64,000 bases of DNA from Croceibacter atlanticus HTCC2559 (GTDB lineage: Bacteria; Bacteroidota; Bacteroidia; Flavobacteriales; Flavobacteriaceae), in contig NC_014230.1 in assembly GCF_000196315.1 (NCBI RefSeq), forward strand, positions 868,001 to 932,000. Direction: 5' to 3'. Both the position numbers and the translations under genes were made by a program. The notes beneath the pieces are model-generated. The model saw nothing but the letters and a program-made list of their open reading frames with translations, had not been told where the DNA came from and made no database searches. Position 1 is the stretch's first letter; each line of letters opens with the position of its first letter. Shown here piece after piece: positions 1,265 to 25,407 of this stretch.

Positions 1265-2554
1265 CTAAGGCCTTAAATCAATTAAATCAATTGGTTTTCT
1301 GCTCATTTTAGGAAACCGAATAGCGTTTAAAGATGCTTTATCATGAAACTCAACGCGTGGCAACACACGAAGTTTTGCTCTAAAATGATCTTTAATCTCT
1401 TGCAGAAATGCTTCAGAAGGATGTTCTGTAGCTATTTTAATTAATATTTCATCTGTTCCTAAATCATTGTGAGAAATTTCAATCACAAAACAAGATATTT
1501 CATTAAAGTGATTAAGTACATTATACATTGCTGGCGGATACAATGTGGTGCCTTTATATTTAATCATTTGTTTTTTTCTTCCTACAACTGGTCCTAAACG
1601 CATAGTGTTTCTTCCACAAGAACAAGGTTCTGTATGTGCTTTAACCATATCTCCGGTTTTAAAACGTAATAATGGCATTGCCTCTACACCTAAAGTAGTT
1701 ATAGTAAGTTCTCCAACCTCACCATTCTTAACGGGATTATTCTTTGCGTCTAATATTTCTGCAATAATAAGTTCAGGATGATGATGTCCTCCTTGGTGTT
1801 CTGAGCACTCATTAAAGGCAGTACTCATTTCTGTGGAGGCATATGTAGAGTATAGCTCTATATCCCAAGCAGACGTTATCTTTTCAGACAATACATTTAA
1901 CGAAAAATCATCATTTCTTATAGGTTCACCAATACAAATAGCGCCTTTTACTCCAGTATCTTTTAAACTAATATCATGTTGATTTGCAAACTCAATAAGC
2001 TTTAATAAAAAAGAAGGCACACAGATAAGATATGTAGGCTTAAACTTCTTAATGGTATCCCATTGTAATTCTGGAATACCAGAACCTACTCGTATGATTC
2101 CAGAACCAAGCTTGCGGCTCCCTAAAAAATAGGCCAAGCCTGCCATAAATCTTCGATCTATAGTGGTCATTAATTGTAAGACATCATCTTTTTGCACACC
2201 GCTACATGCAAAAGAAATAGCCTCGTTATATGCTAATCTATCTAAATCTTTATCTGTTAGTGCAAATATTACGGGCTCGCCTAATGTGCCAGAAGTTGTT
2301 ACATAATCTACAATCTTATGATTTGGAACACAGATAAATTGGTTGTTGTGTTGCTGTAGGTCTTCTTTAGTTGTTACTGGTAAATGTGTTAAATCTTCAA
2401 GTGTTTGTATTAACGATGGCTTAATGTTTTCACTTTTAAAAAGGTTCTTATAATATGTAGAATGCTCAGAAATGTAGGACAACATTTCTTTAAGTTTCAA
2501 TTCCTGAAACATTTTTATTTTAACCGCAGATTGCGTTTCAATTTCTGGAATCAT
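1265..2554 (-). CDS. PaaK-like adenylate-forming (acyl/aryl-CoA or ACP ligase) enzyme
   Basis: This protein of 429 aa belongs to the phenylacetate-CoA ligase/CapK branch of the ANL superfamily. Visible motifs are TSGTLGEP (about residues 87-94, phosphate-binding loop), YASTE (238-242), the KTGD aspartate motif (299-302) and GRKKQMIKYKG (325-335, hinge and C-terminal core). A CxC pair at 311-313 resembles the small metal-binding loop of some PaaK proteins. The family adenylates a carboxylate and passes it to CoA or a carrier. As the last gene of the pigment operon, one base from the C45 hydrolase gene, it plausibly activates the 4-hydroxycinnamate starter or the finished polyene acid. The substrate is inferred from context only. 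Confidence 0.78.
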   Translation of the reverse strand: MIPEIETQSAVKIKMFQELKLKEMLSYISEHSTYYKNLFKSENIKPSLIQTLEDLTHLPVTTKEDLQQHNNQFICVPNHKIVDYVTTSGTLGEPVIFALTDKDLDRLAYNEAISFACSGVQKDDVLQLMTTIDRRFMAGLAYFLGSRKLGSGIIRVGSGIPELQWDTIKKFKPTYLICVPSFLLKLIEFANQHDISLKDTGVKGAICIGEPIRNDDFSLNVLSEKITSAWDIELYSTYASTEMSTAFNECSEHQGGHHHPELIIAEILDAKNNPVKNGEVGELTITTLGVEAMPLLRFKTGDMVKAHTEPCSCGRNTMRLGPVVGRKKQMIKYKGTTLYPPAMYNVLNHFNEISCFVIEISHNDLGTDEILIKIATEHPSEAFLQEIKDHFRAKLRVLPRVEFHDKASLNAIRFPKMSRKPIDLIDLRP

Positions 2555-2555
2555 A

Positions 2556-4229
2556 TTAATTTACCTTCAATTTTTTAATGTACAAATTTATACGCTCTTC
2601 ATCTGGAAGTGTTGTAATAACTTTTGTCTTAGCATCTTGAAATGCTATTAATGCTGCAGCTTTATAGCCTTTGTTTAAGTAGTACAATCCTTGTAGATAA
2701 TACGGTTTCCAATAGTCAGGATTTAATGAGATAAGTGTATTAAATTTTACTCTAGGAATGTCATCTTCTTGCTTTAGGAGCATTTCAACTTCACGCTCTA
2801 AAACTCTGTAAGCCTCATAGTTTTTATAAGCTTCTGTAGTTAAAAACTTATCTTTTGAAATATTTAATGTTGACGTAGATAAACTTGTATTGTTCAATTT
2901 CGAATTGTCTTTTGAAAAAATCTCATTTAAATCATAAGCTACAAATTCGCCTAATTGATAGGGGTTAGAAGACACCCAAACCTTTAATTGCTCTGGCTGA
3001 AACACAATGCCATGATGTGCTAAGAGCTGATTTAATGCTTTTTCATTACCATAACCTAACGGCTGGTTATTCAAGCCCTTTTTATTTCTTAAGATAGAGA
3101 CAGCTTCAGTAACACTCAATTTATGTTCTTGAGATAAGAGTTCTTGCATACGGTCATATCTATATTGAGAATGACTGTTTTTAATCCAATCTAAATTTCG
3201 TTGGTCTTGTTGGTAAGCTTCACTTTGAAAGTGGTTAGAACAAATTAGCTGTTGTGCACTATTTGGCACCTCATACACTCCAAAGTTTGAAGGAGAAACT
3301 TCAATTAAAGCCGCTTTCCCATCTTTTGCGCTTCCTATAAAAATTGCTTCAGATACAAACACCTCTCTTTTTTTTGCAATAGCTACAGCTTCATCTATAG
3401 TAGCTGCATATTGTAGTATTTCTCTAGCTACAATTGATATTGGAGTCTTTGCAATTAATGGAATTTTAGATTTTCCTGCATTTATTGTTACCGTTAATCC
3501 TTGATTGTTCATGCCAGAAACAACACCCATCATGCCGCCCCAAGTATAAGACATATACTTATAGCCATTATCTGGATTTACAAATGCTATTATCTTTTCT
3601 TCAGCAAACTCATCTCCTGCATAAAAGTCGAAATTTCTTCCAATTAGTAAGTCACCATTTTCAGACTTCTCATCCCAAACAGCAAATGAAGAACAACCAA
3701 CTAAAGCTAAGTCTTGTAATGCATGACCTATGTCATGCGCACCGTGAAGATATAATGATCTTAAATACGGAGATGCTATATAATCATACTCGTGCCCAGA
3801 GTATCTTGAAACACCATAAATTTCTGTCTTAAACTCTTCGGGAATATAAGTGTACATTTTACGATTATACCACGCTAAGAATTTTCGTAAAACGCCTTGC
3901 CAAGTTTTATTAGGTACAAGATCATTTACTTTAGTAAAGAAAACAGACTCTTGCTTAATAATAAGCTCTTTTGTGAGGCTGCCAGTAATTAGTCCACGCT
4001 CTAAAGGGTCTCCTTCTACATAAAGTTCCCAAAGACCTTGCTTATTTTTTGTCAAGAAATTTTGTTCAATTCTAAATGTGGAGTCATTTACCGTTTCTCG
4101 CTCTACAATAGTTGAATTGTATGGAGCTGTTATTGGCTTATGGTTAATAGATTTATTAACACCACAAGACCACATTAGTCCAAGGAAAAGTATGTATATA
4201 GGTTTATATGTAAATTTTTTGTTGAACAT
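2556..4229 (-). CDS. C45-family (AAT-like) Ntn hydrolase/acyltransferase lipoprotein
   Basis: The protein has 557 aa and begins with a lipoprotein signal peptide whose likely lipidated Cys is residue 22 (LMWSC). The middle carries the acyl-CoA:6-aminopenicillanate acyltransferase-type fold of N-terminal nucleophile enzymes. LVGCSSFAVWD places the candidate self-cleavage nucleophile at Cys179, followed by GRNFDFY and GMNNQGLTVTINAG. These enzymes mature by autoproteolysis before the Cys and make or break amide or ester bonds. The C-terminal ~130 residues look like a helical TPR-like tail. The gene adjoins the cupin gene with no spacer. Flexirubins are esters of an aryl polyene acid, so an ester- or amide-forming role is possible, but this is inference. 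Confidence 0.75.
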   Translation of the reverse strand: MFNKKFTYKPIYILFLGLMWSCGVNKSINHKPITAPYNSTIVERETVNDSTFRIEQNFLTKNKQGLWELYVEGDPLERGLITGSLTKELIIKQESVFFTKVNDLVPNKTWQGVLRKFLAWYNRKMYTYIPEEFKTEIYGVSRYSGHEYDYIASPYLRSLYLHGAHDIGHALQDLALVGCSSFAVWDEKSENGDLLIGRNFDFYAGDEFAEEKIIAFVNPDNGYKYMSYTWGGMMGVVSGMNNQGLTVTINAGKSKIPLIAKTPISIVAREILQYAATIDEAVAIAKKREVFVSEAIFIGSAKDGKAALIEVSPSNFGVYEVPNSAQQLICSNHFQSEAYQQDQRNLDWIKNSHSQYRYDRMQELLSQEHKLSVTEAVSILRNKKGLNNQPLGYGNEKALNQLLAHHGIVFQPEQLKVWVSSNPYQLGEFVAYDLNEIFSKDNSKLNNTSLSTSTLNISKDKFLTTEAYKNYEAYRVLEREVEMLLKQEDDIPRVKFNTLISLNPDYWKPYYLQGLYYLNKGYKAAALIAFQDAKTKVITTLPDEERINLYIKKLKVN

Positions 4230-5108
4230 TTAAAGCGTCCCGTTGTCTAATTTCTCTTGAGTCTTTTTCTTAACTAGGTTCTCTTTGTAGTCTAGCCATT
4301 TTTGTCCTCTAATCTTACGCATAGCATTTTCAAAATGACGCATTATAAACACATTATAAAGTAATGTGCCCAGTTTTTTGGGAGATCTAGGAAACGCTCG
4401 TAAAGACATAGAAAATCCTGCGGTATCATAACTTACATAATGCCAATAACCGCTAGGAATAAAAAGAGCATCGCCATGGTGTAACACTGCTTTTATACCG
4501 TGTGCTTTTTTTAAGGCAGGATAGCTTTTAAAGTCTGGTTGTTCTATATTAATTTTTTCTATGTTATGAATGGTATAAGGCACACGGTAAAGATATTTTG
4601 TTTGTTCTGGCGGAAATAACCATACTGTTTTTTTGCCATGAAAATGAAACAGCATGTTATTAGCCAAATCTATATCGTAATGCATAAGGACTTTAGAGCC
4701 TTCTCCTCCAAAAAATAACACAGGTAACTTTTTAAAAAACTTGAGTCCGATGTCGGGATATTTAAAATCTTTAGTTAATTCTGGAATGTGGTTAAGGATG
4801 TTAAAAAAGAACATTCTAAGATCTGTGGGCTCTTTTTTAAGAAGCTCTATATAATCTTTAAGCTTCATTTTTTTTACAGGTTCTGCAGAGCTTTGCCTTC
4901 CTTTAGTAGGAACACTATCATAAAGAGGCACTGTTAAATTACCAGCTAAAGATTTTATATAATCTAAACTCCACGTTTTATAAGCAGGCCAATTTTTTGT
5001 TAGGTTACCTATAACAACAGGTTTTTGAGTTTTGAAATAGTTGTTTGTAAATTGGTCTTTAGATATAGTCTCAACACGATCTGCAGCAGTTGTTTTAATA
5101 CTATCCAT
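4230..5108 (-). CDS. JmjC-type cupin (cupin_8) protein, putative Fe(II)/2-oxoglutarate oxygenase
   Basis: This 292-aa protein has the cupin-like JmjC fold. The metal triad is visible as H143-x-D145 (MHYDID) and distal H223 (SGYWHYV). FHFHGKKTVWLFPPEQ gives the central strand with Lys159/160 as candidate 2-oxoglutarate ligands. Family members hydroxylate proteins or small molecules using Fe(II) and 2-oxoglutarate. It has no signal peptide, so it should be cytoplasmic. It sits between the CrtI-like flavoprotein and the C45 lipoprotein genes and reads in the same direction, which suggests a tailoring role in pigment synthesis. Its substrate is unknown. Confidence 0.75.
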   Translation of the reverse strand: MDSIKTTAADRVETISKDQFTNNYFKTQKPVVIGNLTKNWPAYKTWSLDYIKSLAGNLTVPLYDSVPTKGRQSSAEPVKKMKLKDYIELLKKEPTDLRMFFFNILNHIPELTKDFKYPDIGLKFFKKLPVLFFGGEGSKVLMHYDIDLANNMLFHFHGKKTVWLFPPEQTKYLYRVPYTIHNIEKINIEQPDFKSYPALKKAHGIKAVLHHGDALFIPSGYWHYVSYDTAGFSMSLRAFPRSPKKLGTLLYNVFIMRHFENAMRKIRGQKWLDYKENLVKKKTQEKLDNGTL

Positions 5109-5143: not shown

Positions 5144-6670
5144 TTAATTGCTTTCCCATACTTTTTTCATTAAATACTCTGTTCCTAAAATTTCTCCACA
5201 AGTTAATACACCGCTTATTGTAACGCCTAGAATACCGTGCATATTTGTACTCTGTCCTGTAAAGAATAGATTTTCTATCTTGGTTCTTGCAGAAACATTA
5301 GAGTGTAATGGAAAATTCACATCTTTTTCGTACCCATACATTGAGCCTCTATTACTACCAATATAATCTCTGTATGAAAGTGGTGTTGAGGTGTACACAG
5401 TTTCAATACAAGCTCTAATATCTGGAAATTTTTTCTCTAATTCTTTTATAAATTGTTCTGTTTTTTCTTCCTTAAACTCTTTATAGGTTTGGCCTCTGTT
5501 GTTCTTGTGAGTAACTGTATTAAAGGTGTCTTCCCAAGGTTTTACTTCGTCATAATTCATATAGGCTAAGGCTGTAAAATTGTCTGCCCAAATGTCATTA
5601 TTAGTTTTTGGACCCATAGAAATCATATAAGATTCTGGCCAAGATTCATTGGTGTAGTTTTGGGAAGACCAAACAGAATCTTCCGATTTGTAGTGGTATA
5701 CATTGTAATTCTTGTAGCGAAAGGTATTTGGCTTTAAAACTACGTGAAGGCTAAATGCAGCTATTGTACTTTTTATATTTTTTATTCGTTTAATATAGGA
5801 TTTTCGTAAAGCATCTGTCTTCAGAATATCTAAGGTTAACTTTGGTTCTATATTCGAAATAAATGTTTTTCCTTTTATTATGTGACCTTGGTTTGTTTTA
5901 ACAGATACAGCAGTTTTGCCCTCACAAGTAATTTCTGTAACTTCTTGATGTTTAAATGCATGACCGCCATTTTCAAACAACCGTTTTATTAAAAACTTAG
6001 ATATTTGGCTTCCTCCGTTTAAGCACCTATAGGCACTTTTAATATAAGAGTCAACAGATAAGGCGTGTACATAAAATGGCGTTTTATCTCCTTGACCAGC
6101 ATAAAGCAAATTTGTTCCTGCCAATACGGCTTTTAATGTGTTGTTGTCTGTTATAGAATCTATATAAGATTTTGCACTTTCTTCAAACAAGTTAAAATCA
6201 TCATATTCTGGTTTCCCAACTTTCATACAGTATAAGGGAAACTTAGATGTAGTATCTTGAAGCTTTTTGCAATATTCAGAAATTGCTGTCTCTTCTTGAG
6301 GAAATTCTTCTAATAATGTGGCTTTAAAGTTATCTATACCTTGAGCGTGGCGGTATTCTTTGTCATTTTCTCCAAATGTTATAACATCAAAACCATCTTT
6401 ATCTAACTTTTTTAGTTTTAGGTCGTCTATAATATCTAAATATTTAAAATATTGATACATATTTTGACCTTCTTCTAGTCCGCCTATATAATGCACACCT
6501 GTATCAAAAATTGTTTTTTCTCTTACAAAGGTTTGTAGGTTTCCGCCATATTGGTTGTTTTTTTCCAAAATGCAGACACTATATCCTTCTTTTGCAAAGA
6601 TATTTCCAGCTACAAGACCACCTAAGCCACTTCCTATAATTACAATATCGTATTCTTGCTTTAACTTCAA
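5144..6670 (-). CDS. CrtI/phytoene desaturase-like FAD oxidoreductase
   Basis: The 508-aa flavoprotein starts with the Rossmann dinucleotide motif (IIGSGLGGLVAG, residues 11-22) and ends with the C-terminal FAD motif FFTGQSTNMHGILGVTISG, both typical of phytoene desaturases and retinol saturases. The family oxidises, isomerises or saturates polyene chains. The start is a TTG overlapping the TGA stop of the upstream MMPL gene (TTGA), implying translational coupling. In aryl-polyene clusters such an enzyme could adjust double bonds or hydroxylate the aryl end. No carotenoid genes (crtB, crtE) are nearby, so the polyene pigment is the likelier substrate than phytoene. Confidence 0.8.
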   Translation of the reverse strand: MKLKQEYDIVIIGSGLGGLVAGNIFAKEGYSVCILEKNNQYGGNLQTFVREKTIFDTGVHYIGGLEEGQNMYQYFKYLDIIDDLKLKKLDKDGFDVITFGENDKEYRHAQGIDNFKATLLEEFPQEETAISEYCKKLQDTTSKFPLYCMKVGKPEYDDFNLFEESAKSYIDSITDNNTLKAVLAGTNLLYAGQGDKTPFYVHALSVDSYIKSAYRCLNGGSQISKFLIKRLFENGGHAFKHQEVTEITCEGKTAVSVKTNQGHIIKGKTFISNIEPKLTLDILKTDALRKSYIKRIKNIKSTIAAFSLHVVLKPNTFRYKNYNVYHYKSEDSVWSSQNYTNESWPESYMISMGPKTNNDIWADNFTALAYMNYDEVKPWEDTFNTVTHKNNRGQTYKEFKEEKTEQFIKELEKKFPDIRACIETVYTSTPLSYRDYIGSNRGSMYGYEKDVNFPLHSNVSARTKIENLFFTGQSTNMHGILGVTISGVLTCGEILGTEYLMKKVWESN

Positions 6671-9600
6671 TCTTCAATTTTTTTAAAGATACTAAGATTG
6701 TCTTCTTTAGTTATTAATTTAAATGCGTTTGTATTACCAACTCTGTTTAATATACCATTTGAATTTATAATAATGATACTCTTATAGTTGCTGAAATTAA
6801 TTGTTATTTCATCTTCAGAAAAGTTATCTAAAATTAAAACAGATGCAGGCGTATTTAAAACGTCTTCTATCTTGTTGTAAAAGTTTAATTTATAATCTGA
6901 ATGAGAAGTGTAGCTATTGTTAAGTCTATCCAAATCTTTTGTATTCTTAATAGCACTATAAATTTTACGATTTGGTGCGTGTAACGCCAATAAGATATCT
7001 AACTGTCCTTTATGGTTGCCAAGGTGTGCAATAGTTTCCTTTTTGTCTAGAAAATTAATAATATGGAAATAGATTGTCTTATTTTTTTCTAGATCTAATT
7101 TTACGTTTTCAAACAGTTTGTGTCCTTTGTATTTGTACTCGTTTAAAATTCTATCTTTAAAATAGGTTTCTGTTTCAATCCTGTTTCTTAGGTTATTAAA
7201 TTCAGATTTAAAGTATTGGCTTATAAGTTTAGATTTTTCTTTGTATGAAGTGCCGTAAGCTTCACTGTTGTAGGGAATACGCTTTAAAACTTCAACAGTA
7301 ATTTTACCATCTTTAATAGCAAAACTACCTTTAGGAAGCACTTCACTATTACCGTGAATAAGAATAGGAATTATGTCTAATTTTAATTCTTCAGCTAAAT
7401 AAAATGCACCTTTATGAAAACGCCTTATGTAGTTAGTTTTAGATCTTGTGCCTTCTGGAAATGCCATTAAACTGTAACCTTCATCTACTTTTTTCTTTAA
7501 ATGCGACACGCCTTTCTCAATACCTCCAGAAACTGGATAAAATCCTGCTAATTGAACAGCCTTACCAAATATTGGGGAATTATAAACCCAGTCGTTAACC
7601 AAAAAAATAAGTTTTGGATGCATCATTCCTATCACGAGGATATCTAAAAAAGAGGTATGATTGGCTATAAGTATTGCTGGTTTATCAAACGTTTCTTTTG
7701 TTGTATTAATAACTTCTTTTTTTACAAACGGATTGGTGTTTAACACAGATTTCATAAAACCAGATATTGTTTTATGAAGAACAATCATTTTACTGCTCTT
7801 TTTAATTGGTAAAACCTTCATTACCGTAACACTTAACAGAGATAGAAGTAATCCTCCTAAGCCATAATATAAAAATGAGAAACCAGAATGTATTAGTTGT
7901 CTTAGTGTGGCTGGCAATTGGTGCTTAGAGCCAACCAATACTCGAAATAATAAAGGTTGTATTGTAAAAGCACAAAACATTGCAGAGAATATCCCAATTA
8001 TGCAAACCAAAGCTATACTGTATAATGCAGGATGCTTGGTAAAGATTAATACACCAATGCCCAATATGGTTGTTATTACAGAAAGTGTGATTGAGGTTTT
8101 GTGAGTATATAGAGTTGGTGTCCCAAAACGGTACTCTTTTAACAAGCCGTTGGTCATAAAAATGCAATAATCTACACCTAGACCAAAAATAAATGTAGAG
8201 ATTATGATGTTAAAAATATTAAACTCTAAACCTATTAACCCCATAAGGCCAATAGTTAATAGCCAACTTAATAGTATAGGTATACTGGTAATTAGTGTAA
8301 GAGTTATGCTTTTATAAAAAAGCAATAAAAGAACAACCACTACAATTAATGAATATCTAATAAGCTTATTAAAATCTGTTTTAAGGTTACCAAGTAGTGT
8401 TTCATTTATTTGCTGCCTATCTATAACAATCGTATTTTCTAAAGTTTTAAATGCATCTTTTACTTCTGTAACCTTTGCCTCTTTAACCTTGACTAAAGAA
8501 GTTACTGTAGTAAAGCCATTTTTAGTAGAAATATAGTCTGCAAGATTTATAGACGCCAAAGAATTATAGTCTGCAACATTAATAGGAGAAAAGGGTTTTT
8601 CTAAGACTCCATAAAAGGTGTTGAATGTAGTAGGTTTAAACCCAAACTTTGAACCTTCTGTTACCATCTCTTGTTGTAGTCGAGCTGTTTTTGTAGAATC
8701 CCAAAAGGTGTTCCAAGCTGAGATTTTTTCTTGTTGTAACGCTTTAGATTGTACAAGTGCACCAACATTGCTAAAGTTTAAAACTGTCTTATTTTCCTCA
8801 AGCGCGTTTAGTGTTTTATATATGTTGTCATTTTGCTGAAGAGCAGTTTGTAGAGTGTCACTATAACCGGTAATGTAAATAGATTTAGCTGAAAAATTTG
8901 TGAGCCTGTCTAAGCGTTGTTTAGCTTCAATTAAAGACTTTGGCTCATAATTAAGTTTAGAGATGTCATTATTAAATGAAGCGCTTTGATAAGTAAAGGC
9001 ACTAACTATAAATAAAACTATTAAAGTGCCAATTACCCATTTGTTTCTGTGAAATGAAAATTTAGAAAAGGAATCTATTATGTTAGATTTTTCTTGAATC
9101 TTTGAGTTTACACGATACACTTGCGGTATAAAAATTAAGGCAAAAACTGAAGCGCCAAGAACACTTATTGCAGCAAAAATCCCTAAATCTTGTAGTGCTT
9201 GTGACTTAATGAAAATTAAACATAAAAAAGCCATTGCAGTGGTTAAACTGCTCATTAAAATCGGCTTGGTCACATCTTTGTATAACGCTTTTACATCTGC
9301 GTTGTTTCTTAAATGCGTAAGAATATGTAGAGAATAGTCTAAAGTTACACCTAATAATACTGAGCCAATACCTAAGGATATTGCAGAAATTTGAGTTCTT
9401 ATTAGAAAAAGAGAAGCAATTGAAAGTAATCCTCCAAAAAGGGTTGGAACAAACAGTACTAAAGGTATTTGCACCTTTCTGTAAAAGAAAGCAAAAATAA
9501 GTAGCAAAATAGCCATTGCTATACCAACAGTATACTGTACATCTAATTTTATTTGCTTTGCATTTGCTACTGCAACAAGAACACCACCATAAACTTCTAA

Positions 9601-10344
9601 TGAAGCCTTATTTTTAAACGTTGTATTTAGTGAGTCTTTAATTAAATTTAAAGTTTCTACAAACACAGCATTCTCGTCTGTTTTTCCGGTGCCATAAGTT
9701 GGGGTGAGAAAAAGCAATACATTTTGCTCATCCTTACTTAGCAAAAATCCATTCTTAATTTTAAATTGATCACCAATACCTAGTGTTTCAAGTTTTTTTA
9801 ATCCAATAAAGGATAACCCTAAAGGATCTTTTAAAATTGTTTCTTTCGCAATTATGCCACTAGGAGAAATTAATGTTCTATAATTAGATGCTAGAGTAGC
9901 ACTAATACTGTCTGCTTTAATCTTATGAGCCAGTTGTTTGTAATCTGTACTATCTAAAAATAAAGGCAGGTTGTTGTAAACAAAATCTAAGGTATGTAAA
10001 ACATCGGCGTCTTCTATTTGGCCTTGAACATCTTTGATATAATTAGGCCTAAGACCAGAGATACTATCTACAAAAGCTGAAGCCATGTTTGTTAGATCTT
10101 CTGCACTTCCGTTATCAGATTGCCTAATGTTTACAATTATCTTATCAGTAAAATTAACGTTGTTTAATACCTTTTGAAGCTCTTTACCTTCTTCATCTGC
10201 AGGAATTAGTTTGGTTATATCTTCTTCAAACTTAAGTTGCAGTGCCGTATAGGCTAGCGCAGAAAATAAAGCAAGAAATAAGAAAAGGCTTAATAGCTTT
10301 CTTGATGCAATTAAATTATATGTCTTTAAAAAGAAGTTATTCAT
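6667..10344 (-). CDS. MMPL/RND exporter fused to PlsC acyltransferase and a degenerate methyltransferase-like tail
   Basis: This 1225-aa protein has three parts. Residues 1 to about 830 form an MMPL/RND transporter with two repeats of membrane helices. Both repeats keep the proton-relay Asp, in GVTLDYSLH and GLGVDYCIF. Residues about 880-1080 form a PlsC-type acyltransferase with NHTSFLD (near 890) and FPEGTRSK (near 965). Residues about 1095-1225 resemble a class I methyltransferase core in which the glycine-rich SAM loop has become HLGNHKGQLD, so this part is probably inactive. The exporter likely lifts the aryl polyene lipid from the inner membrane while the acyltransferase attaches an acyl group. 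The gene overlaps its neighbours at both ends. Confidence 0.82.
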   Translation of the reverse strand: MNNFFLKTYNLIASRKLLSLFLFLALFSALAYTALQLKFEEDITKLIPADEEGKELQKVLNNVNFTDKIIVNIRQSDNGSAEDLTNMASAFVDSISGLRPNYIKDVQGQIEDADVLHTLDFVYNNLPLFLDSTDYKQLAHKIKADSISATLASNYRTLISPSGIIAKETILKDPLGLSFIGLKKLETLGIGDQFKIKNGFLLSKDEQNVLLFLTPTYGTGKTDENAVFVETLNLIKDSLNTTFKNKASLEVYGGVLVAVANAKQIKLDVQYTVGIAMAILLLIFAFFYRKVQIPLVLFVPTLFGGLLSIASLFLIRTQISAISLGIGSVLLGVTLDYSLHILTHLRNNADVKALYKDVTKPILMSSLTTAMAFLCLIFIKSQALQDLGIFAAISVLGASVFALIFIPQVYRVNSKIQEKSNIIDSFSKFSFHRNKWVIGTLIVLFIVSAFTYQSASFNNDISKLNYEPKSLIEAKQRLDRLTNFSAKSIYITGYSDTLQTALQQNDNIYKTLNALEENKTVLNFSNVGALVQSKALQQEKISAWNTFWDSTKTARLQQEMVTEGSKFGFKPTTFNTFYGVLEKPFSPINVADYNSLASINLADYISTKNGFTTVTSLVKVKEAKVTEVKDAFKTLENTIVIDRQQINETLLGNLKTDFNKLIRYSLIVVVVLLLLFYKSITLTLITSIPILLSWLLTIGLMGLIGLEFNIFNIIISTFIFGLGVDYCIFMTNGLLKEYRFGTPTLYTHKTSITLSVITTILGIGVLIFTKHPALYSIALVCIIGIFSAMFCAFTIQPLLFRVLVGSKHQLPATLRQLIHSGFSFLYYGLGGLLLSLLSVTVMKVLPIKKSSKMIVLHKTISGFMKSVLNTNPFVKKEVINTTKETFDKPAILIANHTSFLDILVIGMMHPKLIFLVNDWVYNSPIFGKAVQLAGFYPVSGGIEKGVSHLKKKVDEGYSLMAFPEGTRSKTNYIRRFHKGAFYLAEELKLDIIPILIHGNSEVLPKGSFAIKDGKITVEVLKRIPYNSEAYGTSYKEKSKLISQYFKSEFNNLRNRIETETYFKDRILNEYKYKGHKLFENVKLDLEKNKTIYFHIINFLDKKETIAHLGNHKGQLDILLALHAPNRKIYSAIKNTKDLDRLNNSYTSHSDYKLNFYNKIEDVLNTPASVLILDNFSEDEITINFSNYKSIIIINSNGILNRVGNTNAFKLITKEDNLSIFKKIED

Positions 10345-11530
10345 TTTTAAGACTATTTTTTTTAGGCTTTAGCATATACAAAATAAAATATCCTAAACCA
10401 CCAAGTGCAACTGCGCTTACAGTTGCTAAAATTAAACTACCAATAACATAGGTTTGTAAATGGTTGAGTACGCCGTAACCTTTTGTGATATGCTCTAATT
10501 GGTAGGTGTCTTCTTGTCCTAAAACAAAACTACCAATGTTCATACTAGCTAAAAATACAAAGGGAATAAATGGCGGCAAACTAATATTAGAGCAGGCAAA
10601 TGAAATGGCTTTGTTTAGCTTGAAGAATATAGATAAGAATATAACCCCAATTGTGTGAAACCCCCAAAATGGAGATAACCCAATAAACACTCCTAAAGCT
10701 ATTGATAGTGCTTTCTTTTTAGGCGAGTCTTGATGCCCCAAAATATCTTCATATATAAATTCCTTGAAGCGCTTTGACTTAAATTTCCTGTAAAAATCTC
10801 TAGGCTTTATATAAAAAAATGCGACGAGTAGTAGCCAAGTGTTCAAGATGCTTATGCGTGTAAAATCTTGAAAAGGCCTAAAATGGGATACGCGCTCATT
10901 CTCATCATACAAAACATTTATAGGTATATTTTTAACTGTAGCACCACGCCAAGCAGACTTTACGATAACTTCTATTTCTAGTTCAAATTTATCTGTATAT
11001 AACTTTGTATGTTTTATGATATTTAAAGGATATAGTCTAAACCCAGATTGGGTATCCTCTAGCCAGATGCCTGTTTCAACTCCATACCAAAAGTTAGAAA
11101 ACTTATTGCCAAAACTACTCTTCTTTGGGACACCAACTTGCGTCATGTTTCTTGCGCCAATTAATAACAAAGAGTCGTCTTGTGCTATTTTAAGCTCTTT
11201 GATAAATACTGGGATATCTTTTGGAAAATGTTGACCATCAGAATCTATTGTAATTGCATAGGTAAATCCTAATGCAATTGCAGTTTTAAAACCTTGTTTT
11301 AACGCGTGTCCTTTACCAATATTTTTAGTGGAATGTAATACGATAAGATTTGGGTAACCTTCTAAAATACTGGTGGTATGATCTGTAGATCCGTCATTTA
11401 TGATTATAAGATCTTGGGTGTGCTTTAAAACGCCATCAATAACGCGCTTTAAGGTATTTGCATTATTATACGTAGGCATAATAACACAACATTTAGAGGG
11501 AAAGGTATGGTCTGTTAAAGATATTGCCAT
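10337..11530 (-). CDS. Family 2 glycosyltransferase with C-terminal DUF2062 membrane domain
   Basis: The 397-aa protein starts with a GT2 domain. IMPTYNNANTLKRVID, IINDGSTD and the metal-binding ITIDSDGQH are visible within the first ~120 residues, in the style of polyprenyl-phosphate mannosyl/glucosyl transferases. After about residue 265 comes a DUF2062 domain, with ALGVFIGLSPFWGFHTIG and several hydrophobic helices, which anchors it in the inner membrane. Its 3' end overlaps the start of the MMPL gene by 8 bp. Such GT2 proteins recur in aryl-polyene clusters and are thought to modify the pigment or its lipid anchor. The acceptor here is not known. Confidence 0.8.
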   Translation of the reverse strand: MAISLTDHTFPSKCCVIMPTYNNANTLKRVIDGVLKHTQDLIIINDGSTDHTTSILEGYPNLIVLHSTKNIGKGHALKQGFKTAIALGFTYAITIDSDGQHFPKDIPVFIKELKIAQDDSLLLIGARNMTQVGVPKKSSFGNKFSNFWYGVETGIWLEDTQSGFRLYPLNIIKHTKLYTDKFELEIEVIVKSAWRGATVKNIPINVLYDENERVSHFRPFQDFTRISILNTWLLLVAFFYIKPRDFYRKFKSKRFKEFIYEDILGHQDSPKKKALSIALGVFIGLSPFWGFHTIGVIFLSIFFKLNKAISFACSNISLPPFIPFVFLASMNIGSFVLGQEDTYQLEHITKGYGVLNHLQTYVIGSLILATVSAVALGGLGYFILYMLKPKKNSLKNE

Positions 11531-12103: not shown

Positions 12104-12718
12104 TTAAAGCTTTTGTAATGCTAAACTTAGCTTTATAGTATGGTGTTTAATTGTAATATAGTGTGCGCTTGCATTCTTAATATCTTCAAAAATAAATGTA
12201 ATTTTCTCTTTAGTTGATGAGGTGTTCACAATTTTTTTGAGAGACTTATTCTCTTTAGAAAACGCATAAAAGTTAAACCTTTTTCCATCTCTAGTTTTAT
12301 ATACAGTCTCTGTATTAGAAGAATATTCCTGTTGTACCACAAGAGTTTCTTTCAACAAGATTTTAAAATCCCTTTTTAAGGTATTTATTAGTATCGGTTT
12401 GTTTAGAGCATCAACTATAAAGTGGCTTTTAAAAGCATCTTCTTGAAATTCAAAATCAAATAGTGTGCTTCCAAATTCTGTAGTAAAAACCACACGATGT
12501 GTGTCTTCACTTATTTTTTTTATAATTAGTATACCACCAAAATGGTTGCCATAAACATCTATTTTAGACTTGTATACATAATCTGTATTAGGATTAGAAA
12601 AATAAGGGTTGGTTATAATATTCGTTGAACTAGTGTTGGCTTCAACTAAATTACGAGTTGTTTTTAAGGAACAGCTGCACAGTAAACATAAAATTAGGCT
12701 AGTGAGTAAAAACCGCAT
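12104..12718 (-). CDS. Pigment-cluster lipoprotein, unknown function
   Basis: This 204-aa protein starts with a short lipoprotein signal peptide ending in LLCSC, so it should be lipidated near residue 16. The rest is predicted mostly beta strand, with no motif I recognise. It overlaps the LolA-like gene by 20 bp and precedes the dehydratase gene. Aryl-polyene clusters of Gram-negative bacteria often carry a DUF3261-type lipoprotein next to a LolA homologue, and this gene sits in that position. It may be an outer-membrane acceptor or anchor in pigment transfer. That assignment rests on position and length, not on sequence motifs. Confidence 0.6.
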   Translation of the reverse strand: MRFLLTSLILCLLCSCSLKTTRNLVEANTSSTNIITNPYFSNPNTDYVYKSKIDVYGNHFGGILIIKKISEDTHRVVFTTEFGSTLFDFEFQEDAFKSHFIVDALNKPILINTLKRDFKILLKETLVVQQEYSSNTETVYKTRDGKRFNFYAFSKENKSLKKIVNTSSTKEKITFIFEDIKNASAHYITIKHHTIKLSLALQKL

Positions 12719-13328
12719 TGCTTACAGGTGTGTTTAAAACTCTATTCTTAAATACAATACGAGTGTAATCTTGAGAAGGTTCAATCATCTTTACTTCAAA
12801 TACTTGAGCATTGGTTTTATCAAATAATAATTCAAACTGCGCAATGTAATTTGATATCGCTTTCTCTTTTGGGATAAAGGTAGCTTTGTAGTAAGTGTTG
12901 CTTTTAAGGTAAGAGATATTAAAATCATTTTCAATAAACATATCTCCTTTAATGCTGCTAATTATTAACTCATTTAGATTTTTAAACAGCTTACTGCTAC
13001 CAATATCTACATTACTTTTGGTGCCATCATCATTAATTAAAAGTTGGTCTTCTTTAAAAATTACACTGTAGGAAAATGGTTTGGTATACTGCCACTTTAC
13101 CAAGTTTGGGGATTTAAAAACCATATGACCATTTGTCTCAATATCATTGGATAGTATGTCCAAATGTTTGTACTGCGTAAAATCACTTTTAATTGTAGTA
13201 ATAGATTTAGCTGAAGCTTTTACATTTTCCTTAAAGGTTTGTATTTCAGATTTACTCATAGACTTTTCTTGAGCAACACTGCTTAATAATAGTCCAAATA
13301 TAAAAATGAGTGTGATTAACTTACGCAT
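12699..13328 (-). CDS. LolA-like periplasmic carrier protein
   Basis: This 209-aa protein has a cleavable signal peptide (hydrophobic stretch to about residue 19, then AQEKS) and the LolA/LolB-like pattern: an early IKSDFTQYKHLDILS segment, GHMVFKSPNLVKWQYTKP and the following strand pairs. LolA proteins shuttle lipoproteins through the periplasm in an unclosed beta barrel. In aryl-polyene clusters a dedicated copy beside an MMPL exporter is common and probably carries the lipidated pigment. It overlaps the polysaccharide-deacetylase-like gene upstream by 8 bp and the lipoprotein gene downstream by 20 bp, indicating one transcript. Confidence 0.78.
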   Translation of the reverse strand: MRKLITLIFIFGLLLSSVAQEKSMSKSEIQTFKENVKASAKSITTIKSDFTQYKHLDILSNDIETNGHMVFKSPNLVKWQYTKPFSYSVIFKEDQLLINDDGTKSNVDIGSSKLFKNLNELIISSIKGDMFIENDFNISYLKSNTYYKATFIPKEKAISNYIAQFELLFDKTNAQVFEVKMIEPSQDYTRIVFKNRVLNTPVSNAVFTH

Positions 13329-21746: not shown

Positions 21747-22490
21747 TTATGAATAGATACCGCCATTAATATTAATGACTTCTCCGGTAATATACGAAGC
21801 ATTTCTTGAAGCTAAAAAGGAGACTAAATGCGCAACTTCTTCTGCTTCTCCAAACCTATTGGCAGGAATTAACTTTTTAAGTTCCTTTTCATTAAGCTCA
21901 CTTGTCATATCTGTATTTATAAAACCAGGAGCTACAGCATTTACGGTAACATTTCTTTTTGCCACTTCTTGTGCTAAAGCTTTAGTTGCAGCAACTACAG
22001 CACCTTTAGCGGCAGAATAATTGGTTTGGCCAGGTGTACCTTTTACGCCAGATACAGATACCATATTTATAATACGACCGTATTTATTTACCAATAATTG
22101 CTTAATAAGATGATTGGTGACATTAAAAAACCCATTTAAACTGGTATTTATAACACTGTTCCAATCTTGAGTTGTCATCCACATAAATAAGCCATCTTTA
22201 TTTATACCTGCATTATTAACTAAAACTTCTATAACAGCTTCTGGGTTGCTTTCCTGCCAAGCGTCTAAAGATTTTGATACACTTTCTGCATTGGCAACAT
22301 CAAATTTTAAAAGTTCAGCTTTATTGCCTTCAGCTTCTACAGCAACTTTTGTCTCATTTGCTGCAGTTTCATTGCTATTGTAGTTTATAAGGATTTTATA
22401 ATCACTGTCTTTTGCTAGTTGAATGCAAACTGCTCTGCCAATACCTCTTGAGCCACCTGTAACCAATGCATATTTTGTTTTTTCTGACAT
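21747..22490 (-). CDS. FabG-type 3-oxoacyl-ACP reductase (polyene ketoreductase)
   Basis: A 247-aa short-chain dehydrogenase with TGGSRGIG at the NADP site, NNAG, and the catalytic Ser and YSAAK pair. It reduces the beta-keto group after each condensation so that the dehydratases can make the double bond. It lies 35 bp after the tyrosine ammonia-lyase gene and 18 bp before the FabF-like gene. Housekeeping FabG would be very similar, but the location assigns this copy to the pigment cluster. Confidence 0.85.
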   Translation of the reverse strand: MSEKTKYALVTGGSRGIGRAVCIQLAKDSDYKILINYNSNETAANETKVAVEAEGNKAELLKFDVANAESVSKSLDAWQESNPEAVIEVLVNNAGINKDGLFMWMTTQDWNSVINTSLNGFFNVTNHLIKQLLVNKYGRIINMVSVSGVKGTPGQTNYSAAKGAVVAATKALAQEVAKRNVTVNAVAPGFINTDMTSELNEKELKKLIPANRFGEAEEVAHLVSFLASRNASYITGEVININGGIYS

Positions 22491-22525: not shown

Positions 22526-24061
22526 TTAGTCTTGCTCTATTTCAGTTTCAATAATAAATGATTTTACCTTATTAACATAAGGATACATAACCACATCTTC
22601 TTTAAAAGCGGGAACTATTTCTCTTATTTGATCAAAGAAAACCTTTGTTTTAGAAGATACTTTGTCTTTTACATCTAAGAACTCAATGGCTTGAACAATA
22701 GTTATTAATTCAATAGCTACAACTTCAAAAGCATTTTCAATTACTTTCTTAGTGATTAAAGCAGCATTTGTGCCCATACTCACAACGTCTTGGTTGTCAT
22801 TGTTGTTAGGTATGCTATGTACATACATTGGGTTAGAAAGCATTTGATTTTCTGCAGTAGTAGAAGTTGCAGTAAATTGAACACCTTGCATCCCAAAATT
22901 TAAACCAAGTTGTCCTAAATTCACAAAAGGAGTGAGAATATTATTTAGTTTAGAATTTAGCAGGTAATTAAGCTGTCTTTCTGCAAGCATACTCAACTTA
23001 GCAACTACAATTTTTAACTTGTCCATCTCTAAAGACACATAGTCACCGTGAAAATTACCACCATGATATACTTGTTTATCTTTAACGTTTACAATAGGGT
23101 TGTCATTTGCAGAGTTTACTTCTTCAATCAGTATTTTTTCGACCATATTTAAAGTGTCTAACACAGGTCCTAATATTTGTGGAACACAACGTAAAGAATA
23201 ATATTCTTGTACTTTTTCTTCGAAGACAGTAACGTTCTTGTTGTCTTTATAAAGGTGATGCTCTCTTTTTCGAGTTAATTTGCTATCAGATAAATGGTTG
23301 CGCATCATTTCTGCAATATCACGTTGCCCAACATGCTTTTTTGTATTATTAAGCTCAAAAGATAAATGATCATCATAAGCTTGTACAATTTCATTTATAG
23401 CAGAAGAACAGGCAACCATCCAATGTAAAAGACGTCTTGTGTAGAGTGTGTTTACAATGCCAATACCTGTCATAACAGAGGTGCCATTCATAATAGCTAA
23501 ACCTTCTCTCAACTCTACTTTAATAGGATTTAAATTGTCTTTGGTAAACACATCTTTGGTTAATAAGCGTTGGCCTTTAACAAAAACTTCGCCTTCACCT
23601 ATTAAAACAAGAGCCATATGTGCAAGTTGTACTAAGTCTCCACTCGCGCCAACACCACCATGCTCATAAATTAAAGGTGTAATATCTTTATTTATTAGTT
23701 CTGCCATTAAAGCTACAACAGATTTGTGAACGCCAGAATTTCCTAAGCACAATGTGTTTAGTCTTGCTAACATTGCTGCTTTTACATAACGTCCTGTTAA
23801 TGGGTTGCCAGTTCCAGAAGCATGACTTCTTATTAAGTTGTATTGTAATTGTATGCGTTGGGAGTCTTCAATCTTATATTGTGCCATTGGGCCAAACCCA
23901 GTATTTACACCATAAATAACTTTATTTTCAGAAAACGATTTTAAAAAATTGAAGCTTTCTTCAACAAGCTCTGTAACAGATTTATCTATGGTAATCTGTT
24001 CTTTATTAAAAACAACTTGGTAAAAATCTGAGATTTCTAATTTACCCTTTAGTGTAAACAT
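22526..24061 (-). CDS. Tyrosine ammonia-lyase (aromatic starter unit)
   Basis: The 511-aa protein belongs to the histidine/phenylalanine/tyrosine ammonia-lyase family. The MIO cofactor forms from Ala139-Ser140-Gly141 in GGVGASGDLVQLAH. Tyr50 in VIYGVNTGFGPMA is the expected base. NLIRSHASGTGNPL and the C-terminal SIPNNNDNQD are strongly like the characterised Flavobacterium johnsoniae tyrosine ammonia-lyase. The reaction converts L-tyrosine to 4-coumarate and ammonia, which supplies the 4-hydroxyphenyl end of flexirubin-type pigments. It is the first gene of the minus-strand operon, with a promoter candidate at 24121-24128. A catabolic histidase role is unlikely because no hut genes are present. 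Confidence 0.88.
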   Translation of the reverse strand: MFTLKGKLEISDFYQVVFNKEQITIDKSVTELVEESFNFLKSFSENKVIYGVNTGFGPMAQYKIEDSQRIQLQYNLIRSHASGTGNPLTGRYVKAAMLARLNTLCLGNSGVHKSVVALMAELINKDITPLIYEHGGVGASGDLVQLAHMALVLIGEGEVFVKGQRLLTKDVFTKDNLNPIKVELREGLAIMNGTSVMTGIGIVNTLYTRRLLHWMVACSSAINEIVQAYDDHLSFELNNTKKHVGQRDIAEMMRNHLSDSKLTRKREHHLYKDNKNVTVFEEKVQEYYSLRCVPQILGPVLDTLNMVEKILIEEVNSANDNPIVNVKDKQVYHGGNFHGDYVSLEMDKLKIVVAKLSMLAERQLNYLLNSKLNNILTPFVNLGQLGLNFGMQGVQFTATSTTAENQMLSNPMYVHSIPNNNDNQDVVSMGTNAALITKKVIENAFEVVAIELITIVQAIEFLDVKDKVSSKTKVFFDQIREIVPAFKEDVVMYPYVNKVKSFIIETEIEQD

Positions 24062-24159: not shown

Positions 24160-25407
24160 ATGAAAAATATAAAAACAGATGTTCTTGTTATTGGAGCAGG
24201 ACCTTCTGGATGTGTTGCATCTGCATATCTACAGGCTAACAACATAGATGTGTTAGTTGTTGAAAAAAGTAAATTTCCAAGATTTGTTATTGGAGAAAGT
24301 CTACTGCCTAGATGTATGGATCACTTTGAAGAGGTAGGACTTTTAGACTGTCTTAAGGCTGAAGGTTTTGAGGTTAAATCTGGCGCACGATTTATTAAAG
24401 GAAATAAAGTGTGTGATTTTGAGTTTGATAAGAAATTTAGTCCTGGTTGGGATTGGACATGGCAAGTGCCTAGAGCAGATTTTGACCACGCCCTAACAAA
24501 CGAATTGCAACGAAAAGGAGTTTCAATATATTTTGAACATGAAGTTGTAGACGTTGAATTTTATAAGGATGGAAGCTCTAAGACTTCACTTAAAGACAGA
24601 AATGGTGTTATTACTGTGGTTGAAGCTAAGTTTGTAATAGATTCAAGCGGTCATGGAAGAGTTTTACCAAGATTATTGGGTCTAGACAAACCATCAAAAA
24701 TACCTAAGCACTCGTCTTTATTTACCCATGTAAAAGATTTAAGAAGACCTTCTTCTTTAGAAGGAACAAGAATAACGTTTGATGTTATTAATAAGGATGT
24801 TTGGCTTTGGGTTATTCCTTTTTCTAATGGAATAACTAGTTTAGGTTTAGTAGGTCCTACAGACTACTTTGAAGATTTTAAGGGAACTACCACTGAAAAA
24901 CTACAACAATTAATGGCACTTTCAGATTTTTATAACCCTAGATTTAAAGATATAGAATACGAGTTTGAGCCAAAAATGATTAAAAATATCTCAAAATCTG
25001 TAACAAAATTATATGGTAATGGGTTTGCATTAACTGGTAATAGTGCAGAGTTTTTAGACCCAGTATTTTCATCTGGAGTTACTTTTGCTACAGAGTCTGG
25101 GCTTTTAGCGGCTAAACTTGCAGCTAAAGAGATTACTGGAGAGAAAGTTAATTGGGAAACAGACTATAAGGATTACATTCTTTCTGGCGTCACTGTATTT
25201 TCAACTTATGTAAGTGAATGGTATACAGGTAATTTGCAAAAAATATTCTTTTATGATAAAATAAGCCCTAGTGTAAAAGCGCAAATTTGCTCTGTCTTGG
25301 CTGGTTATGTTTGGGATACTACAAACCCTTTTGTGAAAAACCATCATAGACTTGTAAAAACATTGTCTAAGGTCATAGACTTAGAAACTGAAGGCAATAC
25401 AGATTAA
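24160..25407 (+). CDS. Halogenase-like FAD-dependent monooxygenase of the pigment cluster
   Basis: A 415-aa flavoprotein with GAGPSGCVA (12-20) and the sequence SKFPRFVIGESLLPR typical of flavin-dependent halogenases and geranylgeranyl-reductase-like enzymes. Two Trp-rich motifs appear: DWTWQVPRADFD near 98-109 and WLWVIP at 215-220; the latter fits the WxWxIP pattern used to recognise flavin halogenases. It is divergent from the ammonia-lyase gene with 98 bp between them. Some flexirubins are chlorinated on the aromatic ring, so halogenation is plausible; hydroxylation or reduction are alternatives. I cannot confirm the catalytic Lys. Confidence 0.7.
   Translation: MKNIKTDVLVIGAGPSGCVASAYLQANNIDVLVVEKSKFPRFVIGESLLPRCMDHFEEVGLLDCLKAEGFEVKSGARFIKGNKVCDFEFDKKFSPGWDWTWQVPRADFDHALTNELQRKGVSIYFEHEVVDVEFYKDGSSKTSLKDRNGVITVVEAKFVIDSSGHGRVLPRLLGLDKPSKIPKHSSLFTHVKDLRRPSSLEGTRITFDVINKDVWLWVIPFSNGITSLGLVGPTDYFEDFKGTTTEKLQQLMALSDFYNPRFKDIEYEFEPKMIKNISKSVTKLYGNGFALTGNSAEFLDPVFSSGVTFATESGLLAAKLAAKEITGEKVNWETDYKDYILSGVTVFSTYVSEWYTGNLQKIFFYDKISPSVKAQICSVLAGYVWDTTNPFVKNHHRLVKTLSKVIDLETEGNTD

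Follow-up and report, generated by a model that had tools for sequence, protein, structure and literature searches.

The three-part gene and its degenerate third domain

The window analysed here is a 64,000-nucleotide stretch of the Croceibacter atlanticus HTCC2559 genome (NC_014230.1, positions 868,001 to 932,000; coordinates below are those of the window), and the subject of this report is a minus-strand gene at 6667..10344 that starts with ATG and encodes a protein of 1225 aa in one open frame. A first-pass annotation had described a single polypeptide joining an MMPL transporter, a PlsC acyltransferase (AT) and a C-terminal domain like a class I methyltransferase (MT), a description borne out by Pfam, by predicted fold and by homology to versions whose third domain is intact. 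The MMPL/RND-type exporter part, a homologue of ApeM (7915..10344, approximately residues 1-810), matched PF03176 in two stretches (E 1.4e-17). The PlsC-type AT part, a homologue of ApeD (7240..7914, approximately residues 811-1035), matched PF01553 at residues 884-996 (E 1.2e-21), and both of its sequence motifs are intact, namely NHTSFLD (residues 895-901; 7642..7662) and FPEGTR (residues 962-967; 7444..7461). The remaining tail, all on the same minus strand, occupies 6670..7233 (residues 1038-1225) and contains, at 6997..7026 (residues 1107-1116), the former glycine loop for S-adenosylmethionine (SAM), HLGNHKGQLD. No full-length match to the protein was found elsewhere in the 2.95-Mb single-contig genome, making the gene the only copy; a second MMPL/RND-type protein at 48498-49997 (open frame of 806 aa) matched the exporter weakly.

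Comparison of homologues for an intact GxGxG, as the annotation had proposed, did uncover intact relatives. Among the 95 loci first compared, an MT was called intact when motif I, [DE].G[CSAT]G.G, occurred after residue 1000, and 46 loci qualified. The motif I glycines of these 46 rows are present by definition; the motif I cysteine, the acidic residue (D) ending beta-2 and the LHY histidine are not, and each was found in 46/46. An intact MT was also recognised by Pfam (PF13649, E 1.1e-12). When aligned, D-x-G-C-G-Y-G of the intact relatives falls on H-L-G-N-H-K-G of the window protein, which has kept the first and third glycines and lost the second, and isoleucine replaces the acidic residue at the end of beta-2, in agreement with the annotation's reading of the loop and of the lost acidic position. 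Both the G.G.G motif I and the acidic ribose-binding residue of class I SAM-dependent methyltransferases are thus missing from the window tail, which on its sequence is classed as a pseudo-methyltransferase and not as an enzyme of that group. The same losses were seen in the 41 AT-bearing degenerate rows, where the first glycine occurs in 6 (the window included), the second in 2, the third in 39 and all three together in none. The beta-2 acid is kept in 0/41 (I in 26, L in 7, V in 3, and F, Y, M, N and S in one each), and the LHY histidine in a single row, with a gap in 37. The distance from motif I to the C-terminal end has a median of 120 residues in degenerate tails vs 168 in intact ones, i.e., ~48 residues have been lost. 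The tails of loci L070 and L071 (and L181) look the least degenerate within the window's order (Flavobacteriales); those of L070 and L071 retain G.G, and beta-2 is still followed in them by an acidic residue.

Relationship between the two kinds of tail was assessed with hidden Markov models (HMMs) built from small sets of sequences. A model made from degenerate tails only gave two intact tails 52 and 40 bits, and one made from intact tails only gave the window tail 28 bits. Another intact-only model found 38 of the 40 other degenerate tails among the open reading frames (ORFs) of the loci at E < 0.01, and hhalign aligned degenerate with intact tails at a probability of 99.0. As judged by these profiles, the degenerate tails and the intact MTs are homologous. 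Relocation of the MT to another site was considered and rejected, since searches of 24 genomes returned no second intact-MT relative at E 1e-6 other than one weak match in genome G073; the window's genome itself held none at that threshold.

The fold of the tail was examined separately. The last 159 residues on their own matched no Pfam family at E 1, residues 1038-1225 matched no NCBIfam model at E 0.01, and the tail profile found 0 matches among PDB sequences. An AlphaFold model of residues 1038-1225, made with 53 relatives in the alignment, reached a predicted local distance difference test (pLDDT) score of 93.2 and a predicted template modelling (pTM) score of 0.87, and consists of helices followed by an alternating beta/alpha sheet that ends in an antiparallel pair. 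Foldseek returned 108 PDB matches for this model at E <= 0.001, and the 50 best were nearly all SAM methyltransferases (TrmR, caffeoyl-CoA O-MT-like, Trm5, Dot1L and others); 3gnl, among the matches listed, is titled uncharacterised. VIA-align, run on Foldseek's top 1000 matches, gave Z >= 8 for 934/1000 structures, and its best 50 rows (Z 12.3-13.8 across 138-175 residues) were again mostly SAM methyltransferases, two being nicotianamine synthase. A model of the AT and tail together (pLDDT 86.5) had Thermotoga maritima PlsC as its first match (5kym, TMt 0.85), with MTs next. The predicted fold of the tail is therefore that of a class I MT, as its layout had suggested to the annotation. An origin of the tail by chance or frameshift was rejected on the strength of this model and of the same kind of tail in 80 relatives; these 80 are the best of 576 loci and not a random sample, being mostly Flavobacteriaceae together with a Chryseobacterium metagenome-assembled genome (MAG) and two others labelled no further than Bacteroidetes or Bacteroidia.

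Distribution, descent and selection

The window protein was matched at E <= 1e-200 by 44/199 genomes of its family, and P0001, an intact relative searched against the whole class, by 69/395 genomes at E <= 1e-60. Final totals comprise the 95 loci, 13 further class-level genomes and one more genome of the window's family (G015), in which an AT and a tail lacking motif I stand at a contig end. Outside the window's order (61 genomes), 58 have an intact-looking MT (one on a broken frame), 2 a degenerate one and 1 the exporter only. Inside the order (48 genomes), none is intact; 40 have the AT with a degenerate tail, 2 a tail without AT and 6 the exporter alone. Since intact domains number 0/48 inside the order vs 58/61 outside, the decay of the MT is, as read from these sequences, old and order-wide. 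The 13 further class-level genomes include 12 with motif I, several of them cut by contig ends; the other (G481, locus L300) encodes an exporter alone, of 834 aa, with AT and MT absent from the stretch examined. In one genome (G606, locus L301) an intact MT lies in a separate overlapping frame after an exporter-AT protein, either a frame break or a true split.

In a FastTree phylogeny of the MMPL region (95 rows, some on long branches; local Shimodaira-Hasegawa-like support), all 47 rows from the window's order grouped in one clade (support 100) made of 39 with AT and degenerate tail, 6 with MMPL only and 2 with MMPL and tail without AT. Within it, the six MMPL-only rows formed one clade (98), as did the two rows without AT (100), L070 and L071, where the tail directly follows the exporter. 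Intact MTs occurred in 46 of the 48 rows outside the order. The other two, L146 and L147, have shortened, degenerate tails and sit on long branches, L147 as sister of the window's order (98) and L146 elsewhere on the tree; because of these placements, the MT is judged to have degenerated at least twice on the MMPL tree.

Selection was estimated by the Nei-Gojobori method as the ratio of nonsynonymous to synonymous substitution rates (dN/dS) in 24 sequences of one genus, using the 79 pairs with MMPL dS < 1.3. Summed dN/dS was 0.058 for the MMPL part, 0.115 for the AT and 0.20 for the tail, and a rerun with other domain borders (78 pairs) gave 0.061, 0.103 and 0.207, all of which are rough values. 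In intact relatives the MT gave 0.017-0.075, from three pairs only, too few for a strong contrast, and the MMPL part reached 0.165 in one group of intact relatives. By these ratios, the tail is under purifying selection.

Among 54 flavobacterial tails, 18/188 positions were at least 90% conserved, and 10 of these 18 columns lie within 26 residues (model residues 66-91), from the old SAM loop to beta-2 (Fisher p 1e-5, kinship ignored). A new signature, H.....GQLD, stands at the former SAM loop, with H in 49, G in 54, Q in 50, L in 50 and D in 49 of the 54 tails. Given purifying selection, and a newly conserved signature where the SAM loop used to be, the tail is, on this sequence evidence, remodelled rather than simply decaying. 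The first-pass annotation had called the MT domain decayed; the loss of motifs is real, but it is not peculiar to this gene, and simple decay is the part of the claim that does not stand.

Gene neighbourhood and the pigment

All genes of the surrounding operon named here are on the minus strand unless stated otherwise. The ORF of a CrtD/CrtISO-like flavin adenine dinucleotide (FAD) oxidoreductase (5144..6670) overlaps the end of the fusion gene by 4 nt, and a glycosyltransferase (10337..11530), whose C-terminal part resembles TIGR03546 but scores below the cut-off of that model, overlaps the start of the fusion gene by 8 nt. A LolA-type outer-membrane carrier, recognised by Pfam, lies at 12699..13328. 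On the other side are an FlxY acyl-CoA ligase (1265..2554), a C45 family autoproteolytic acyltransferase/hydrolase (2556..4229), both over the NCBIfam cut-offs, and a Cupin_8 protein (4230..5108). The FlxB SDR reductase (21747..22490) and the FlxA tyrosine ammonia-lyase (22526..24061) also scored over their cut-offs, and the operon holds ketosynthases and acyl carrier proteins as well, so that the whole is of flexirubin/aryl-polyene type. At the window's edge, a plus-strand gene at 194-1225, which may start before the window, resembles TamL-type translocation lipoproteins in their C-terminal half (positions 402-747 of 747).

Beside FlxA, on the plus strand, is a CmlS-halogenase-like FAD protein (24160-25407; below the model's cut-off). 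Chlorination in place of methylation was considered, but relatives of this gene occur in 76/80 exporter-bearing genomes whatever the state of the MT and so do not discriminate; the gene is perhaps an unrecognised constant member of the pathway.

The dialkylresorcinol genes expected of a true flexirubin cluster were missing from the window's genome: DarH had no match, DarB none over the cut-off (best E 1e-9), and a DarA candidate (L287:8883-9872), whose identity is inferred from its adjacency to DarB, no relative at E 1e-20. According to the available text of PMC5932025, the presence of DAR genes turns aryl polyenes into flexirubin-type pigments. By this rule, and since DarB, DarH and the DarA candidate are missing, the operon at 1265-25407 probably makes an aryl polyene and not a true resorcinol-esterified flexirubin, and an aryl polyene is the more likely identity of what the annotation had called simply the pigment.

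The AT was also followed across the loci. Its NH....D and FPEG motifs are kept in most rows; exceptions include NHMSLIE in five f42 rows, YPAG in L122 and no FPEG in L060, L132, L151 and L154, and the NH motif was not found in the AT of L129. The AT is missing in 8/95 rows. A CrtD-like gene was present in the locus stretch of 71/87 rows with AT vs 0/8 without, and when 23 chosen genomes were searched (limit 1e-40), a close CrtD relative (E 3.5e-114 or better) was found in 15/15 with AT and 0/8 without, i.e., the two go together in 23/23. The exporter-only genome G481, outside the order, nevertheless has a CrtD-like neighbour (35% identity, E 6e-89), and an FlxB-like one too, which rules out AT and CrtD as an unbreakable pair. 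DarH occurred in 64/72 AT genomes and 0/8 AT-less genomes (80 of the 95 genomes searched), and DarB was likewise absent from all 8 AT-less genomes tested; on the 95-row tree, the AT-less pattern comes down to two independent losses of the AT, too few for significance to be reached. The window's own genome keeps AT and CrtD although its Dar genes are missing. That AT and CrtD are so often paired, and that Dar genes are missing from all AT-less genomes tested, points to the pathway step that the AT may serve.

Proposed function and comparison with known systems

The best overall explanation, to which we assign a probability of about 0.55, is that the whole protein belongs to the three-part exporters of Bacteroidota aryl-polyene/flexirubin clusters, in the form that the window's order typically has, and that its tail now acts as a non-catalytic binding or docking domain. 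Since the exporter and AT are homologous to ApeM and ApeD and lie in a pigment operon, the MMPL part would move the finished pigment-lipid from the inner membrane towards LolA and the outer membrane, and the PlsC part, presumably on the cytosolic side, would load the pigment acyl chain onto a lipid acceptor next to the exporter. The tail would descend from a SAM methyltransferase still intact in related families, having lost motif I, the ribose-binding acid and ~48 residues before the order diversified, and because of these losses methylation by the window protein has most likely stopped. The fold would have been kept and the old cofactor loop turned into the conserved H.....GQLD site, with the polyene substrate, its carrier protein or the AT as possible partners; the coupling to export and a tail that only binds, both suggested by the annotation, as well as the acyl acceptor and the ligand of the tail, we infer. 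Retention of the tail without AT in both members of one clade counts in favour of a docking role. A more specific version, in which a repurposed, order-wide pseudo-methyltransferase uses its H.....GQLD site to bind the aryl-polyene chain, or that chain's carrier protein, for transfer to the AT and exporter, so that the third domain gates loading of an acylate-and-export channel, is put forward tentatively.

Several observations weigh against a binding or docking tail. Its dN/dS exceeds those of the AT and MMPL parts, indicating weaker constraint; the ratios are rough because dS averages ~1, near saturation, and the pairs are non-independent; and the demands of folding can by themselves keep a domain under purifying selection. 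The signature falls short of universal, at H, Q and D, six relatives do without tail and AT altogether, and the window protein itself retains two of three motif I glycines. The small sets behind the HMM scores also mean that bits must be read instead of E-values. A passive remnant, kept only because its removal would destabilise the AT or the whole polypeptide, would fit the higher dN/dS of the tail relative to its neighbours and to intact MT domains (again three pairs only), as well as the further shortened, degenerate tails of L146 and L147 outside the order. We nevertheless regard it as doubtful, given that conservation is concentrated at the former cofactor loop and not across the core, and that L070 and L071 keep a tail though the AT is gone. 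That an atypical loop still lets the tail bind SAM or S-adenosylhomocysteine, and that the tail methylates or acts as a SAM sensor, would be consistent with the retained fold, the third glycine of 39/41 degenerate rows (and the first in the window protein) and the G.G and acidic residue of L070 and L071; it appears very improbable beside the near-complete loss of the first two glycines, the beta-2 acid, the LHY histidine and ~48 residues.

For the AT, a different explanation is that it makes an ordinary phospholipid or lipid-A-like anchor without acting on the pigment chain, and that the fusion only fixes stoichiometry. Its motifs and fold are indeed those of general PlsC-type lysophospholipid acyltransferases, and G481 demonstrates that AT and CrtD are separable. 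However, the AT sits inside a pigment operon, was present or absent together with the pigment-cluster CrtD-like gene in all 23 genomes searched, and the 8 AT-less genomes tested all lack Dar genes; we consider this explanation unlikely.

Transport to the outer membrane is an unsolved step for aryl polyenes and flexirubins, pigments that are very common in bacteria. With acyl transfer and export united in one protein, their coupling becomes testable, and the natural series of intact MT, pseudo-MT, no AT and exporter only offers ready-made comparisons.

In Escherichia coli, the aryl polyene genes apeM, apeD, apeL and apeB have proposed roles in acylation to the anchor and export, according to the available text of PMC8253772. 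With family HMMs, ApeM scored 164 bits against the exporter part and ApeD 89 bits against the AT part; together with the nearby LolA gene, these homologues place the window in the aryl polyene export set of ApeM/ApeD/ApeL type. Unlike in the window, exporter and acyltransferase are described there as separate genes. ApeB, which Pfam reads as a Methyltransf_2 enzyme with a dimerisation domain, reached a weak 18.6 bits against the HMM of intact MTs and a negative score against that of degenerate tails, and the window tail matched neither Dimerisation2-like nor Methyltransf_2 families. The fused MT was an attractive candidate for the ring methylase, in view of the methionine-derived ring methyl of Chitinophaga pinensis flexirubin (PMC3992019) and of the role that ApeB is thought to have in E. 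coli, but could not be established as such. Separate ApeB-type MTs were found in all 6 MMPL-only clusters of the order (L062:215-1279, L063, L065, L068, L069, L072), in some loci with AT and pseudo-MT (L159, L160, L171, L183, partly truncated where the locus ends, and, for G072, L293), in some with intact MT (L139, L142, L145, L148, L311) and in the Persicobacter plasmid cluster (L299:2459-3532), and not in the stretch examined of many other loci, the window's operon included; the loci cover unequal gene sets, so this tally is not genome-wide. In the clusters that have one, ring methylation looks as though it came from this different, ApeB-type enzyme.

The flx cluster of Chitinophaga pinensis shares with the window the genes FlxA, FlxB and FlxY. 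The available text of PMC3992019 reports that its flexirubin is ring-methylated from methionine and that flxP-flxU, including a phospholipid acyltransferase, LolA, a glycosyltransferase and an exporter, are proposed to serve pigment export; unlike it, the window lacks both an intact fused MT and Dar genes. The literature searched held no statement on whether flavobacterial pigments lack the ring methyl, nor a pseudo-methyltransferase of this kind. The closest named counterpart is RefSeq WP_264793640.1, on plasmid pAUEa of Aureispira anguillae, a 'trifunctional MMPL family transporter/lysophospholipid acyltransferase/class I SAM-dependent methyltransferase' whose domain order, by name, is that of the window protein and whose neighbours (FAD oxidoreductase, C45, AMP-binding protein) resemble the window's. 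The intact-MT relative P0001 is 39.7% identical to it over 99%. A Persicobacter homologue is named acyltransferase in RefSeq; in both A. anguillae and Persicobacter psychrovividus the exporter cluster lies on large plasmids (L298, L299). Unlike in WP_264793640.1, the third domain in the window's order is degenerate and shorter, so that the trifunctional name, if transferred automatically, would overstate function and promise an MT that the residues of motif I and beta-2 do not support. The three-part fusion as such is therefore already known to annotation; what appears to be new is the pseudo-MT branch, with its remodelled and selected loop.

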